From IMG/VR virus record IMGVR_UViG_3300037488_002294, positions 1-31,917 of that record: a stretch of 31,917 nucleotides of DNA; one strand, given 5' to 3'. Shown piece after piece: positions 2,950-20,821 of this stretch (position 1 is its first letter; each line of letters opens with the position of its first letter). The position numbers and the translations under genes are program-made. This DNA comes from a virus. The notes beneath the pieces are model-generated. The model was not told where the DNA came from, made no database searches, and saw only the letters and a program-made list of their open reading frames with translations.

Positions 2950-3594
2950 ATGTTAAAACAATTAAAAAACGGCTGGGACAATAACGGTTTATATGTGCCA
3001 AATAATGAAACTAACAACGATTACCAAGAGATAAAAAAATATATCGACGATGGTGGCGAATATGAAAAATTCGACTGGTTAACTGATGCAAAATTAGAAA
3101 AAATAAATGAGTTAAAAGTTAATTTTGATATTGCTTCAAAAAAACCTTATCCCCTAAAAGATGTTAAGCAAATTGATAAAGTTGGCAATGTTATCAAAAC
3201 AATTGACGCTTTTTATAATATTGCTGATGCTAGTTCTTTAACTGATTCTGCAAATATTATTTTTGCGGGAACCTTTATGAAAATGCAAGGCTTCTTAAAA
3301 GTTTTGTGTGCAAGTCTTAAAATAGATTATAATACTATTTTAACGCAAGTTAATGGTCTTTCTGATAATCCAGCAACTGAAAAGGTGGCAAATATACCTT
3401 ATACAACTAAAGATAAGGATGGAAACGAAGTTAGAATCCTTTTAAGCTTTGCAAAAATACAAGAAATATTTGCGCATATTTTTACTAGAGTAGCTAATGC
3501 TGGCAATTCTTTTAACATTATAGAAGAGCAAATTAAAAAAGTTTCGACTATTGAAGAGCTTGAAAAAATAAATATTAATATTATTGTAAAATGA
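2950..3594 (+). CDS. Tail-fibre-associated protein, DUF4376-like C-terminus
   Basis: 214 residues, directly after the fibre gene and overlapping the next gene by 4 bases (ATGA). The N-terminus (GWDNNGLYVPN) is a short lead-in like those of fibre-accessory proteins. The last 70 residues (YTTKDKDGNEVRILLSF, then EEQIKKVSTIEELEKI) resemble the DUF4376 helical domain found in phage tail-fibre accessory proteins. It may be a chaperone or a minor fibre component. No catalytic motif or membrane segment is seen. The position supports a fibre role more than the sequence does. Confidence 0.45.
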   Translation: MLKQLKNGWDNNGLYVPNNETNNDYQEIKKYIDDGGEYEKFDWLTDAKLEKINELKVNFDIASKKPYPLKDVKQIDKVGNVIKTIDAFYNIADASSLTDSANIIFAGTFMKMQGFLKVLCASLKIDYNTILTQVNGLSDNPATEKVANIPYTTKDKDGNEVRILLSFAKIQEIFAHIFTRVANAGNSFNIIEEQIKKVSTIEELEKININIIVK

Positions 3595-6431: not shown

Positions 6432-6625
6432 TAGATTATTTTGCCCCCACTTTAAACTTACCAAAGCGATGATGGTATGGGGGCTTGCTCGTTCCAGAGG
6501 TCTTGGAGTTATTGCCTAAAACTAACATCTCTATTAGCCTTTCCAAGACTTAACCGCTTGATTAGTGAAGCCATTTCTGGCGATTTGACTAGCTCGTTTT
6601 TAAGCGTCTAGTATGCTTTTATTTT
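6432..6625. other. Structured convergent intergenic region (hairpin array)
   Basis: About 300 bases without a gene lie between the rightward late operon and the leftward early block. Three hairpins stand out. GCCCCCA (6443-6449) pairs with TGGGGGC (6478-6484), with an inner TACC/GGTA pair. GTCTTGGA (6500-6507) pairs with TCCAAGAC (6542-6549). GCCA (6570-6573) pairs with TGGC (6578-6581). None is followed by a proper T-run on either strand, so these are not textbook terminators. The region is richer in GC than its surroundings. It may be a bidirectional stop for convergent transcripts or encode a structured RNA. Confidence 0.45.
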
Positions 6626-10113: not shown

Positions 10114-10961
10114 TATTCACCCTCCTTAGCGACTCTAAACTCTTCTGCTTTGATAGCGTCAATTTCTTCTTGAGTCAAAGCCGTTTCTTGTTTTTCAACA
10201 ACTTCGTCTTCAACTTCAAAATCAACTTTTGGTAAATCGTTAATAATTTTTGGTTCTGATTTAGTTTCTTGGTTTAAATCAAAATTCTCATTATCTTTGT
10301 TTACAAGATTATCTAATAAATCATTGCTTAAGCCCGCAAATATTACTTTGCAACCTCTTCTAATTATTGCTACCTTCGCTTTCTCTTCAAACCAAGCTTT
10401 CCAAATAAAATCTTGTTTAGCACTTCCTTTAATTCTATTTATTTCTTCTTTTGATACAGTTTCAACTTTAGCAATTTTTCTATTTCCAAGAGTAAAAGAA
10501 ATATAGCAATAACCGCCAATGATTTTATCTTGTCCTGCGAAGGGGTCTTTTATTGTGTGGTTATACTCTTCAATATCGCCATCTTTTTTAATTGAAAATA
10601 TATCGCCTTCTTTTACAAGATTTACAACAATATTTGCATCGGAATAGGCTCTTTTAATAGCATAAATAAAACCACGATAACCAATTTGCAATTGAGCACT
10701 GTCTCCATATTTGATTAAGTGGCAATGTTGCCTTGAATCAATTTCAAGTCCTAAATCAACCGCTTGTTTTACTGCCGTTAAAATTGAAAGCGGGGTGCAA
10801 ACTGATAAATCTTTTTTCGGGTCTGATTTGCTTTTAGCAATTTCAAGCAATACTGATTTAATATATTTATTAGCATCGCCATTATAAAATTGAGGCAATT
10901 TATCTAATAATGTTGTTTCGATTTTTTGAATTACTGATAATCCTTTAGTTTCATTTTTCAT
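10113..10961 (-). CDS. recT: RecT family single-strand annealing protein
   Basis: 282 residues with the RecT core. Signs include KYIKSVLLEIAKSK..L..CTPLSILTAVKQAVDLGLEID, QLQIGYRGFIYAIKRA and KEEINRIKGSAKQDFIWKAWFEEKAKVAIIRRGCK, the conserved W...K..AIRR segment. The C-terminus (about 225-282) is acidic and disordered, as in annealases that bind SSB or exonuclease through a tail. It anneals complementary single strands made by the YqaJ nuclease encoded next. The start follows the AU-rich leader with AAAAAACTATG, without a Shine-Dalgarno sequence, downstream of a good sigma70 promoter. Confidence 0.9.
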   Translation of the reverse strand: MKNETKGLSVIQKIETTLLDKLPQFYNGDANKYIKSVLLEIAKSKSDPKKDLSVCTPLSILTAVKQAVDLGLEIDSRQHCHLIKYGDSAQLQIGYRGFIYAIKRAYSDANIVVNLVKEGDIFSIKKDGDIEEYNHTIKDPFAGQDKIIGGYCYISFTLGNRKIAKVETVSKEEINRIKGSAKQDFIWKAWFEEKAKVAIIRRGCKVIFAGLSNDLLDNLVNKDNENFDLNQETKSEPKIINDLPKVDFEVEDEVVEKQETALTQEEIDAIKAEEFRVAKEGE

Positions 10962-11008
10962 AGTTTTTTATTTTAAGTTAATAATATTTTTTTATGGTGT
11001 AGCCCTAT

Positions 11009-11971: not shown

Positions 11972-12616
11972 CTATCTCCCCTCACTCATTTCCCAAAGCT
12001 TTTCGGCTTTCGTTGTTTCATCTTCTTCTTCCTCTTCTTCCTCCTCCTCCTCCTCTTCATCCTCATCTCTCCTATTTATTTTGTCAATAACTATACACTC
12101 AATCTCGTCCCCAATTTGATTAACATATTTTTTAGGCAAATATACTTCGCAATTTTCCATATTATAAAAATAGATTTCTGCATCGTCGCCCAGTGATTCA
12201 ACATCACCTTCATACATAAATTCAACCGCATTATCAATAAATGTTTCAATTGCTTCTGCGAGACTTTTACCAGCGCCTTCGATGCCATATTTTTTATTAT
12301 GGAATCTAATTTCTTGATTTGCTTTAATTAATCTCTTCATTTCCGACGCGCATAAACGCTTTTGCAAGTCTTGTTGTATTTTAAGATTTTCCGCATCGGT
12401 GAAAGCCTCAAAGTAAGGCACGGCTGGGCAATTTAACGATTGCCTATTTTTAGCGATTGCATAAGCAACATAATTAATGTCTAGGATTCCCCTTTGTTCG
12501 TCATAATTGCAGGCTTCAAAAAAATTCTCACCAATTAATGTCCAATCATCTTTTCGGATAGTTTTGTTTATTTCAAAAATTTTCTTTTTGTTGCTTACTA
12601 AAATGTGTGTTTTCAT
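11972..12616 (-). CDS. Hypothetical protein with poly-glutamate tail
   Basis: 214 residues. Residues 1-180 are an ordinary mixed fold with no recognised motif. Then RRDEDE runs into about 15 successive Glu/Asp residues (a GAA/GAG microsatellite near 12025-12070) and a short amphipathic end. The acidic tail could mimic DNA, or bind SSB-like or basic proteins, as in some phage anti-host proteins, but nothing proves it. The leader is the AU-rich AAAAACTATG type. Confidence 0.6.
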   Translation of the reverse strand: MKTHILVSNKKKIFEINKTIRKDDWTLIGENFFEACNYDEQRGILDINYVAYAIAKNRQSLNCPAVPYFEAFTDAENLKIQQDLQKRLCASEMKRLIKANQEIRFHNKKYGIEGAGKSLAEAIETFIDNAVEFMYEGDVESLGDDAEIYFYNMENCEVYLPKKYVNQIGDEIECIVIDKINRRDEDEEEEEEEEEEEEDETTKAEKLWEMSEGR

Positions 12617-12640
12617 AGTTTTTAAATTTAAGTTAATGTT

Positions 12641-12859
12641 TTAATATCCGTCTCCGTTTCCGTTTCCGTCTCCGTCTCCGTTTCCGTCTCCGTTTCCGTA
12701 TCCGTATCCGTTTCCGTCTCCGTATCCGTTTCCGTCTCCGTATCCGTTTCCGTCTCCGTTTCCGTATCCGTCTCCGTATCCGTCTCCGTTTCCGTTTCCG
12801 TATGTAATTTCCACAGATTGATTTTCTTCTTTTATTAAGTTGCCCATAAAGTTTACCAT
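12641..12859 (-). CDS. Gly-Asn/Asp/Tyr dipeptide-repeat protein
   Basis: 72 residues from the ATG at 12859, which overlaps the stop of the previous gene (ATGGTAA); a start at 12883 would add eight residues. A 20-residue ordinary N-terminus (NFMGNLIKEENQSVEITY) is followed by about 50 residues in which every second residue is Gly and the others are Asn, Asp or Tyr. It is encoded by repeats of GGNNAC-type hexamers. There is no secretion signal. The alternating Gly pattern is unlike the RTX nonapeptide. It may be a flexible, sticky or phase-separating tail, or a slippage product of a short gene. Confidence 0.6.
   Translation of the reverse strand: MVNFMGNLIKEENQSVEITYGNGNGDGYGDGYGNGDGNGYGDGNGYGDGNGYGYGNGDGNGDGDGNGNGDGY
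12644..12802 (-). repeat. Hexanucleotide microsatellite (GGAAAC/GGAGAC/GGATAC)
   Basis: About 26 consecutive hexamers differ only at the fourth base (A, G or T), seen on the plus strand as TCCGTT/TCCGTC/TCCGTA units. The unit is six bases, so gain or loss of copies keeps the frame and changes the protein by two residues each time. GC content and periodicity are unlike the rest of the window. Confidence 0.95.
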
Positions 12860-13158
12860 TTTGATTGGTCGCAGTTCATACAAAAAATCACATTAGCTGT
12901 ATCTAGACTTATGTCTAAACATTTATCAAGAATAGTTTCTGGTAATTTACCTTTTATTGCCAACTCGCCTAAGCCTTGGGTAGTTCCCCATCTCCGAATA
13001 ATTGAAGCGTTCGTAATATAAGTTTTGCCATCTTTTTCTCTCACATTACCTATTACATTCCAACCTCGATTTAAAACCAAAATCTGAATTGGTGAGGGTT
13101 GATATTCAGATTCTGATTTTTTTATGTAAATTTCATTATTTATTGTTATTTCTTTCAT
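12853..13158 (-). CDS. Conserved phage hypothetical protein (IRRWGTTxGLGELA motif)
   Basis: 101 residues. The segment LNRGWNVIGNVREKDGKTYITNASIIRRWGTTQGLGELAIKG follows a pattern I recall from many small phage proteins: an RGWxxxG strand, then ASxIRRWGTxxGLGELA. Their function is not known. The C-terminus has CMNCDQSKW. It is the first gene downstream of the structured RNA locus (AU-rich AAAAACTATG leader), so it may be transcribed from the promoter at 13588-13616 through that RNA. Confidence 0.65.
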   Translation of the reverse strand: MKEITINNEIYIKKSESEYQPSPIQILVLNRGWNVIGNVREKDGKTYITNASIIRRWGTTQGLGELAIKGKLPETILDKCLDISLDTANVIFCMNCDQSKW

Positions 13159-13199
13159 AGTTTTTAAATTTAATTGTTAATAATATTGCCTTTTTACAG

Positions 13200-13580
13200 A
13201 AGGCTAACTGCAATTGTGGCGGGACTTGAACCCACACTAAGACGGCACTAGAACCTTTCTACCGTTGATAACGCGTATTTCTACGGCTAGTCTTCCTCTA
13301 CACAATCTACCCTTTATTCAGAGGAGCGACCAAGCCCGTAAATAAAGTATTTTTGCACCATCTTTTGCCGTGCAAGCTAAATATTTATAAAGCTAGCGGA
13401 ACTAAAGTTAAAACTTTATCAGCTTGTCCCGCTAGTCATTTAAATATTCACGATTTATTAACAAAGCCCCGCATTACTCCCCTTGGGAGATTTCTTCCTG
13501 CACCTCACGATAAAATCAATAACTGAATTACCGCTTTGTTATGCCCTCTATATTTCCCTCATTAGTTTTTTTAGTAGTGA
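13200..13580 (-). ncRNA. Structured non-coding transcript with stacked hairpins, ends in a tRNA-like element
   Basis: About 480 bases (13159-13638) hold no convincing gene but start from a consensus promoter on the minus strand. In order of transcription: a helix GCTTTGTTA/TAACAAAGC (13541-13533 with 13467-13459) encloses about 65 nt and an inner CTCCC/GGGAG hairpin. Next is a long hairpin at 13448-13380 of three perfect blocks (8 bp AATATTTA, 7 bp CTAGCGG, 7 bp TAAAGTT) separated by bulges. A 6-bp TTGCAC/GTGCAA hairpin lies at 13375-13353. The tRNA-like unit at 13307-13212 comes last. GC is higher than in neighbouring genes. The class is not recognised; tmRNA, SRP and RNase P signatures were looked for and not found. 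Confidence 0.6.
13212..13307 (-). tRNA. tRNA-like element (degenerate or long-variable-arm tRNA)
   Basis: On the minus strand the ends form a 7-bp acceptor stem (GATTGTG with CACAATT, one G-T pair). The 3' side carries a perfect T-arm GTGGG-TTCAAGT-CCCGC (13235-13219). Total length is 96 bases, so a long variable arm (Leu/Ser/Tyr class) would be required. The middle does not fold into a clear D-arm and anticodon arm. The best anticodon-like loops are TTATCAA on a stem with a bulge, or AAAGGTT on a mismatched stem. No CCA is encoded (GCA follows). It could be a decayed tRNA, a tRNA mimic or a processing signal for the RNA upstream. Confidence 0.4.
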
Positions 13581-13587
13581 TGCAATC

Positions 13588-13616
13588 AATATAAACGGGC
13601 TTGTTTTAATTGTCAA
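13588..13616 (-). promoter_or_regulatory. Consensus sigma70 promoter for the structured RNA locus
   Basis: TTGACA (13616-13611), 17-base spacer, TATATT (13593-13588) on the minus strand. This is one of the closest matches to the consensus in the window. Transcription would start near 13580 and run into the hairpin array, not into an ORF. It lies just after the stop of the 88-residue gene. Confidence 0.75.
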
Positions 13617-13638: not shown

Positions 13639-13905
13639 TTATTTTACCCAATATGGTTTTTGGTACTTTTCTTTAGCTAGTTCGTAAAGTATTTTTATTT
13701 GATTTTCATTTAAATCTATTTTTTTATTTTCTGATTCAATTATATAATCTTCTGCAAAATTCTGATAGTGCCAACAAGTAGATGTTATAATTATATTTTC
13801 GCAAAAAAATTTATTGATACATCTATCAGGATATTTTTTAAAAGTTCCTTCAAAACGAACTGGATTTGTTTCAATCAACTTTTTTATTTTAAAATATTTT
13901 ATCAT
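13639..13905 (-). CDS. Hypothetical protein, 88 residues
   Basis: A basic, aromatic-rich small protein with scattered Cys (CINKFFCEN, TCWHYQ) and an amphipathic C-terminal helix. It starts 4 bases inside the end of the receiver-domain gene (ATGA), so it is coupled to it and might be its partner. No family recognised. Confidence 0.55.
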   Translation of the reverse strand: MIKYFKIKKLIETNPVRFEGTFKKYPDRCINKFFCENIIITSTCWHYQNFAEDYIIESENKKIDLNENQIKILYELAKEKYQKPYWVK

Positions 13906-14213
13906 AAATCCTTTAAATTAAGTTGTTTTTTACTGATAACGTCATCAATAAATTCATTGCCAACAAGGTTATCATCGGCACTCGATAATATTATTTTAGT
14001 CTTTGTAATGTCTTTTATTTCTTTCGCAATTTCTGTGCCTAATTCATTATGTAAATTATTATCAAGGATAATTAGGTCATAATTATTGCTTTTTAATAAT
14101 TCGAGTGCCTCATCCTTAAATTCAACAAATGTTAAAGTGTGTCCCGTGTCCTTAGCTTGATGATTCCAAACTAGGGACATAATTGGACAATCTTCGATTA
14201 TTAAGATGTTCAT
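13902..14213 (-). CDS. Stand-alone response-regulator receiver domain (CheY-like)
   Basis: 103 residues from the ATG at 14213 (an in-frame TTG at 14249 would add 12 atypical residues). Receiver features: MNILIIED (acidic pair Glu7-Asp8), YDLIILDNNL with the phospho-acceptor Asp51, ILSSAD (Ser77/78) and ISKK (Lys95/96). The chain stops at the end of beta5/alpha5, so there is no output domain. Such a protein could take phosphate from host histidine kinases or act as a decoy or bridge in host signalling. The family is clear; the partner and purpose are unknown. Confidence 0.75.
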   Translation of the reverse strand: MNILIIEDCPIMSLVWNHQAKDTGHTLTFVEFKDEALELLKSNNYDLIILDNNLHNELGTEIAKEIKDITKTKIILSSADDNLVGNEFIDDVISKKQLNLKDL

Positions 14214-14265
14214 AAAGTTGAAATAATACCTAAGATTAAGATTGAACAATAAATTATGGTAATTG

Positions 14266-15483: not shown

Positions 15484-15951
15484 TTAATTTTTTACCCACT
15501 GAGTTGTTATAATCTGTTTTTGGATTACTTCTCCCATAAATTCAGGCTTTCCGTAATCCTCTCCACTTTTTTGCGTAGAAAATTGATAAAATTTACCAGT
15601 TGGAATATGTTTCATTATTTCATTAATGTAAACATATTTTGAATCGCTATCCGCATCACTTGTATCTTCCACTTCTTCTAGCTCCTCAAAATCTGAAAGA
15701 CATGTGTTGTCTTCAAGTTCCGCCACAATTTCCTCAATTGTTTTTTCATATTTAAACATTGTTTTCAAATCTTCATTTCCCAAAATTTCACCTAATTTAA
15801 AAAGAAATCTATATAAATCATTGTCAATTTCATAATCACATTTGATGGAATACATATCACCAGCCGACTCTTCAACTATATCTTCAAGACCTTTATTAAC
15901 TTGATTTCTAAATTTATCAACCAAGTTTGTTATTTTTTCGTTGTTTTTCAT
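15484..15951 (-). CDS. Hypothetical acidic protein, 155 residues
   Basis: Acidic, mostly helical N-terminal 90 residues, then an Asp/Glu/Ser linker (EELEEVEDTSDADSDSK) and a short C-terminal domain with HIPTGKFYQFS. No known domain. It lies downstream of the helicase loader. Leader AAAAACTATG. Confidence 0.55.
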   Translation of the reverse strand: MKNNEKITNLVDKFRNQVNKGLEDIVEESAGDMYSIKCDYEIDNDLYRFLFKLGEILGNEDLKTMFKYEKTIEEIVAELEDNTCLSDFEELEEVEDTSDADSDSKYVYINEIMKHIPTGKFYQFSTQKSGEDYGKPEFMGEVIQKQIITTQWVKN

Positions 15952-16000
15952 AGTTTTTAATTGTTAAAGTTGTTAATATTAAAATCAGTTTGCTCCCTGA

Positions 16001-19965: not shown

Positions 19966-20268
19966 TTAATATAAAAGTAAGTTTTTAATACTTTCCAATT
20001 CTTGTTTTGATTTTTTAAGTTCTTCTTCTAGCCTGTCGCAATTGTAGCAATGATTTACTACGGCATACCCTCCAGAACTCACAAACCCATCGACATCGGA
20101 CACATAGACATACACAGAACCACCGCCACCGCCTTTACCGTGTTTCATAATTGATTCACCATTTTTACCTAATTCATCACAACTAGCATCTCCACCTCCA
20201 ACGGTAATTAAAAAGCTTTTTGGTTTTTCTTTTTTATGTTTTTTAAATAGTTTTTTTATAAATTTCAT
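19966..20268 (-). CDS. Gly-rich small protein with basic start
   Basis: 100 residues: Lys-rich residues 1-17, then a Gly-rich middle (TVGGGDASCDELG, HGKGGGGGSVYVYVSD, SSGGYAVVNHCYNC) and a coiled coil at 75-97. Three Cys may bind metal. Not recognised. Leader AACAACTATG. Confidence 0.5.
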   Translation of the reverse strand: MKFIKKLFKKHKKEKPKSFLITVGGGDASCDELGKNGESIMKHGKGGGGGSVYVYVSDVDGFVSSGGYAVVNHCYNCDRLEEELKKSKQELESIKNLLLY

Positions 20269-20278
20269 AGTTGTTAAA

Positions 20279-20821
20279 TTAATTGTTAATGATTAAATTT
20301 TCTTTTTTGAAAAAATCTTTTATTTCTAAAATTTTTGTTTCAATATTATTTAAAGTTAAATCTGAAATTACAAAGTCAAAACGATTTTGAGAAACAAAAA
20401 AATCTCCTTCCTCACCATAATTTTTTAATACCAAAGAAAATTCACAAATTTTAAAAGAAAAATCTTGATGTTTATAATCAAAAAATGTTGTTAAAATTTC
20501 ATGCTTACTTAAATGATCACTAAATCTAAAAATATTGTGATTCTTTTTAAAATAATAAGAGTTTGCACCATAATTTTTTAAAACATCTTTTTGAAAATTA
20601 TACTTAAAAAAATCTTTTTTAAAATCGGCAAGCAAACTAATTTTTTGTTCGCAAAAATAACTACAAAATATCTTAGATTCCTTTTTTATGTTTTTTGCTC
20701 CTTTTTTTTCGCAAATTTTTGAACAAAATTTTCCTTCTTTTTTTAAAGAATAACCTGCATTTCTACCGCAACAATCGCACAAATAAACAATTTTTTGACA
20801 ACAATAACAGTTTTTTTCCAT
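20279..20821 (-). CDS. Cys-rich zinc-finger-like protein
   Basis: 180 residues. The first 60 hold repeated Cys pairs: CYCC, CDCCGRN, FCSKICEKK and FCSYFCEQK. These look like FCS/MYM-type or treble-clef zinc sites. The remaining 120 residues are Phe/Lys rich without a known domain and end in an amphipathic helix. Zinc binding is likely; the target is unknown. Many A-runs (poly-Lys and poly-Phe codons) make the gene especially AT-rich. Confidence 0.6.
   Translation of the reverse strand: MEKNCYCCQKIVYLCDCCGRNAGYSLKKEGKFCSKICEKKGAKNIKKESKIFCSYFCEQKISLLADFKKDFFKYNFQKDVLKNYGANSYYFKKNHNIFRFSDHLSKHEILTTFFDYKHQDFSFKICEFSLVLKNYGEEGDFFVSQNRFDFVISDLTLNNIETKILEIKDFFKKENLIINN

Follow-up and report, generated by a model that had tools for sequence, protein, structure and literature searches.

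The DNA analysed here, called the window in the following, is a phage record of the IMG/VR collection with a length of 31,917 bases. It encodes a RecE/RecT pair, a DnaC-like loader and phage structural genes. Within a block of minus-strand genes it also contains a locus for a structured RNA. On one side of this RNA lie a small gene with no assigned function (13,639-13,905) and a stand-alone response-regulator receiver gene (13,902-14,249, minus strand; Pfam PF00072, 44 bits). The latter is a context gene outside the RNA; it is found upstream of the locus in many relatives, and tblastn detected homologues near the corresponding arrays in 17 other loci. On the downstream side follows a gene of 101 amino acids with no assigned function (12,853-13,158). 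Two other peculiarities of the window may be mentioned in passing. An A/T-rich leader type, TTAAATTTAAAAACTATG, is repeated directly before many minus-strand start codons and lacks an obvious Shine-Dalgarno sequence (12,611-12,637, 13,153-13,180, 10,956-10,994, 15,946-15,981, 20,263-20,307 and others, minus strand). An 80-aa reading frame (12,641-12,883, minus strand) ends in a long C-terminal (GNGDG/GYGNG) repeat, whose coding DNA is a tandem array resembling TCCGTNTCCGTTTCCG.

Transcription of the locus would start from a sigma-70-type promoter, TTGACA-17-TATATT, on the minus strand (13,588-13,616). TTGACA occupies 13,616-13,611 and TATATT 13,593-13,588, the spacer is 17 nt long, and 11 of the 12 consensus positions are matched. 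TTGAC[AT]-17-TATATT is also present in six related loci (L009, L010, L012, L015, L016 and L077). Since a promoter scan of the region revealed no excess over shuffled sequences (3 sites seen, 4.1 expected), the claim of a promoter rests on the 11/12 match and on conservation. Downstream of it extends a non-coding RNA of about 400 nt, which is composed of a unit A, a hairpin H, a unit C and a 23-nt hairpin motif at the 3' end.

A previous sequence-only reading of this DNA had proposed a promoter-driven, non-coding, structured phage RNA with a tRNA-like end. This view is supported: the promoter, a closing helix, a three-block hairpin and a 96-nt unit were all found, and the strand, which that reading had not given, is the minus strand. 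The proposed extent, 13,200-13,616, holds for the elements inside, but its end at 13,200 is slightly short; the RNA runs on through a conserved hairpin to about 13,186. The raised GC content was likewise borne out, with 40% in the region and 30% in the window, and it is higher in only 0.9% of the early-region windows of the same size. The 418 nt have a low folding energy (z -3.1; none of 100 dinucleotide shuffles was as low). The opposite strand, however, folds equally well (z -3.3), and folding energy can therefore not set the strand by itself. The strand is set by the promoter, the sequence of the T-loop and the common orientation of homologous units. As the cloverleaf in unit C has, when taken alone, an ordinary folding energy (z -0.5), our case rests on comparison rather than on energy. 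A helix CAAGCCCGT/ACGGGCTTG, which would pair the promoter spacer with helix P0 of unit C, was rejected, because it is preserved neither in L009 nor in L010.

The common catalogues do not explain the region. In the window ARAGORN found no gene and no tmRNA, and Rfam yielded no match at gathering score. These were the searches by which an ordinary tRNA or a known family should have been recognised; neither of them did so, and with ARAGORN and the Rfam tRNA model both negative an ordinary tRNA was rejected. At permissive Rfam settings, the region gave only a tmRNA T-arm and chance matches. A tmRNA was equally rejected, since its model scores 10.2 bits, on the T-arm only, against a gathering score of 47.

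Unit A, a three-way-junction RNA, occupies 13,456-13,560 on the minus strand and scores 106 bits with covariance model R1. Its closing helix is TAACAAAGC/GCTTTGTTA (13,541-13,533 with 13,467-13,459). The model was built from 12 sequences and finds 17 copies; among them is one in the 140-kb contig L062 that had no part in building it. In 16 distinct copies 98.3% of the cells are paired and 9 pairs are changed on both sides, though these model-fitted counts are biased towards the model. A MAFFT alignment agrees, with 99.3% paired and both partners changed in 6 pairs. If the partner is slid by 1-3 columns, pairing falls to 31-49%. The closing helix itself switches from ACAAAGC/GCTTTGT to TTTTAGC/GCTAAAA. 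Matches to the unit A pattern in L076 and L078 were dismissed as chance; they lack flanking conservation and are missed by model R1. Contig L062 also has a non-coding array at 130-1960; within its roughly 1.8 kb lie two tRNAs and numerous structured units.

Another structured RNA that belongs to this repertoire, unit Q, lies in the window at 6,439-6,619 on the minus strand (model R3, 167 bits). In 12 copies 96.1% of the cells are paired, and 15 of 32 pairs are changed on both sides. It has no match in Rfam. Unit Q is also found in two contigs of one Rickettsiales MAG and, within the records of L010, L015 and L016, at a second locus. The alignments show units A and Q to be under selection for base pairing. 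The compensatory changes that had been demanded of homologues are thus present; they are strong for unit A and modest for the tRNA-like unit.

Units are separated by a spacer, AAATCGTGAATA, at 13,445-13,456 (minus strand), which recurs between units and tRNAs of the relatives. The short spacer pattern by itself also yields chance matches, and contigs that match it but have no other units were treated as such. The adjacent hairpin (13,380-13,448, minus strand; energy z -4.8) consists of a constant outer stem, AATATTTA/TAAATATT, a clamp, CTAGCGG/CCGCTAG, and a small hairpin as payload. Homologous slots lie between ATATTTAAATG and CTTTATAAATATT, and their payloads, 44-301 nt long, are unrelated to one another. 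Of 20 such slots with different payloads, 18 have a clamp stem with no fewer than 7 bp, compared with 1% of shuffles. The three-block hairpin of the window is such a payload slot, H, with a minimal payload. One payload in L010 (930-1060) contains two T-arms, one of them within a tRNA-like unit with an 11-bp acceptor-like stem; the arrangement resembles one tRNA nested inside another.

Unit C begins with a hairpin, GCAC...GTGC (13,355-13,373, minus strand), the stem of which is invariant in eight homologues; hairpins of this type, GGCACGGGTAAAGAAGAGTGC, also begin many other units. It is followed by helix P0, CTTTATT/AATAAAG (13,312-13,347, minus strand), with 98.4% of the cells paired in 7 distinct sequences. 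The remainder, 13,212-13,307 on the minus strand, is the 96-nt cloverleaf, a structure predicted by RNAalifold and described by model R2, which matches 8 loci. The acceptor stem and the T-arm that had been noticed in this unit are both there, at 13,307-13,212. The acceptor stem has 7 bp (GATTGTG/CACAATT) and is paired in 100% of the cells. The T-arm, GTGGG-TTCAAGT-CCCGC, is canonical with 5 bp and a TTCRANN loop; its stem is 100% paired, and every one of the eight homologues has TTCAAGT or TTCGATT as the loop. The two other arms differ from those of a tRNA. At the D position a 10-bp hairpin capped by GAAA is predicted in place of 3-4 bp with a GG loop, and at the anticodon position a 9-bp hairpin with a loop of 3 nt, AGG, in place of a 7-nt loop. 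With these replacements, the cloverleaf should not decode. A CCA end is not encoded in the unit.

Over the whole of unit C, 8 homologues, 7 of them distinct, have 99% of the cells of 44 pairs paired. Both partners have changed in three pairs, namely pair 7 of the acceptor (G-C to A-U), one pair of the hairpin at the D position (C-G to U-A) and one of that at the anticodon position (C-G, U-G and U-A). The covariation support for the cloverleaf is modest, because the sequences are few and closely related. A terminal cloverleaf with a tRNA acceptor and T-arm, yet without an anticodon loop, is the structure that the model supports with these few sequences. An earlier inner pairing, CTAG/CTAG with two small hairpins, was dropped in its favour, as the RNAalifold cloverleaf has 13 more pairs and gains one covarying pair. 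Another odd tRNA-like unit of about 105 nt, GGAAGAG...CTCTTCCACCA, lies in L030 (12090-12197, minus strand); ARAGORN makes no call there, and the tmRNA model matches weakly with 21 bits.

Unit C is almost unchanged between phages whose neighbouring gene has diverged. Its 142 nt show no substitution against L010 and one against L009. The DNA of the receiver genes of these two relatives is only 82-83% identical to that of the window's gene, with differences at 6-7 of 17-18 fourfold sites. The near-identity of unit C could partly come from recent recombination. A decayed tRNA plus leader, one of the options offered by the sequence-only reading, is unlikely in view of these figures. The option of a tRNA mimic fits best.

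The array is closed by the 3' motif, CAGTTAGCCTTCTGTAAAAAGGC, at 13,188-13,210 (minus strand), a 23-nt sequence with the hairpin GCCTT/AAGGC. Identical copies are found in 30 viral contigs, and the units that precede it vary between phages. In L034, a phage contig of 175 kb, it is seen between canonical tRNAs (3448-3470, minus strand); it is, therefore, not tied to odd units. Exact copies are also present in 3 contigs of two Rickettsiales MAGs, that is, in 2 of 343 genomes of this order, and the MAG contigs concerned may be phage. A Rickettsiales host of the phage is a lead, not a result.

What the locus is became evident from its relatives. With a 27-nt 3'-end probe, two related contigs were detected. 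They match the window at the promoter and over roughly 250 nt at the end of the aligned region, but carry insertions between the shared blocks. In L009 the insertions comprise tRNA-Met, tRNA-Arg and further tRNA-like units, with AAATCGTGAATA spacers in between. RecT relatives and another probe widened the set, and L011, L012, L013, L015, L016, L018 and L019 proved to have arrays that include tRNA-Asn, -Met, -Arg or -Ser. The relatives keep the promoter and the terminal unit, and canonical tRNAs and other structured units are exchanged at the same joints. When representative units were compared with all loci, about 20 unit families emerged, in variable order, in about 40 contigs and on a single strand per array. 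The array DNA examined, 16.6 kb, contains 37 T-arms, where mononucleotide shuffles would give 0.02; 30 of these T-arms have a matching 7-bp acceptor, and about half belong to units that are not tRNAs according to ARAGORN. Several units show clear D-arm sequences of tRNA-Ser or tRNA-Leu. In the array loci tested only tRNAs exceed the Rfam gathering score, and no non-tRNA unit tested does. The relatives have clusters of tRNA genes, the window itself has no tRNA gene; it has lost canonical tRNAs or never had them. The idea of one isolated 380-nt RNA is not supported, as the relatives hold real tRNAs and other units, and the region presents itself as a modular array in shortened form.

We consider it probable, at roughly 60%, that the region is a shortened modular array of phage RNA cassettes with a non-decoding tRNA mimic as its last unit. 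To judge from the compared loci, such an array would amount to a tRNA operon whose tRNA slots have come to be occupied by other structured RNAs. It would be transcribed from the conserved minus-strand promoter into one precursor. RNase E prefers A/U-rich sites, and the precursor may be cut in the A/U-rich spacers, whereupon the units would accumulate separately; the 23-nt hairpin may define or protect 3' ends. The array could also remain joined to the mRNA, because the start codon of the downstream gene (12,853-13,158) follows about 30 nt after its end.

The function of the terminal unit allows of more tentative statements only. The acceptor and T-arm are the part of a tRNA that is chiefly contacted by RNase P, the CCA-adding enzyme and EF-Tu. 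Because this part is kept and the anticodon loop is absent, we prefer, as a possibility, a mimic that occupies a host protein handling tRNA and does not supply a codon. Its target might be, for instance, a processing enzyme or a defence nuclease directed at tRNA. A mimic without an anticodon loop would offer anticodon nucleases no target, which would agree with the proposal that phage tRNAs are a response to defences against tRNA. The decoy role is a guess. More speculative still is the thought that uncultured phages keep a modular RNA arsenal in a promoter-driven array, comparable to islands of anti-defence proteins, in which structured payloads, including anticodon-loop-less tRNA mimics, are swapped in clamped slots and each has its own host target.

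Other explanations have to be weighed against the cassette array. We give a small chance to one large folded RNA in the manner of GOLLD or ROOL, the parts of which would act jointly with tRNAs in the linkers. GOLLD and ROOL do occur near tRNA islands, the linker of GOLLD may hold tRNAs (PMC12286853), and the relatives keep the promoter and the terminal unit together. Yet the units are found in other orders and combinations and also singly, and in most slots the content is wholly changed. Moreover, the GOLLD and ROOL models of Rfam gave no match in the window at gathering score, and under permissive settings they matched neither the region nor the tested array loci. A similarly small chance is given to a cis-regulatory leader that senses a signal or a tRNA for the downstream gene. 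The 3' motif indeed stands close to the start codon, with 24-31 nt between them in many relatives. The protein behind it, however, varies among relatives that share unit C, and that of the window has no homologue in the other loci, which speaks against a leader of one gene; units are also placed between tRNAs and elsewhere in the genomes. That the tRNA-like units are functionless degenerate tRNAs of a decaying array is very unlikely: the missing canonical tRNA of the window and the tRNA-Ser and tRNA-Leu D-arms would suit it, but the compensatory changes, the near-identity of unit C across phages and the strong covariation of units A and Q do not. Least probable are DNA-level recombination sites with incidental RNA structure, for although the motifs are short, almost invariant and flank exchangeable segments, they keep one orientation per array behind a conserved promoter and among tRNAs, and the units between them covary as RNA.

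What phage tRNA clusters and their accompanying stable RNAs do is a matter of long-standing debate. Here, about 20 RNA families that we could not find in Rfam are exchanged as units between phages, and several are derived from tRNA and apparently unable to decode. The arrays thus offer a concrete and testable case for phage "tRNA" loci that do more than supply codons. The covariance models obtained from them serve to find further members.

In the open-access literature we found no description of arrays of this kind, which is weak evidence of absence. Related systems are nevertheless known. Phage tRNAs have been proposed to answer host defences that target tRNA, with selection acting on the anticodon loop (PMC10264068; PMC11555353). 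They share with the present unit that a tRNA or tRNA-like RNA is encoded by the phage; they are, however, canonical and decoding, and the unit here lacks the anticodon loop. In tmRNA and other tRNA-like structures a tRNA acceptor and T-arm are equally joined to a non-tRNA structure, but the CCA end is absent here, no tag reading frame was recognised, and the tmRNA model matches the T-arm only. GOLLD and ROOL are large structured phage RNAs of unknown function, often near tRNA islands, and the GOLLD linker can contain tRNAs (PMC12286853). The likeness lies in a structured phage RNA near, or sometimes interspersed with, tRNAs; theirs is one large conserved fold, whereas the arrays consist of short units in variable order. 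A parallel in arrangement is seen in phage T4, where RNAC and RNAD, two stable RNAs still without a known function, stand in one cluster beside tRNA genes (PMC9697503). These RNAs were compared through the Rfam and GenBank phage searches only, in which the non-tRNA units had no match: the window region had none among GenBank phages, and three array queries gave tRNA-sized matches at canonical tRNAs, among the matches listed, or nothing. Unlike the T4 cluster, the window is devoid of a canonical tRNA, and in the arrays to which it belongs, which have clamped slots and end motifs in common, about 20 unit families are swapped from phage to phage.
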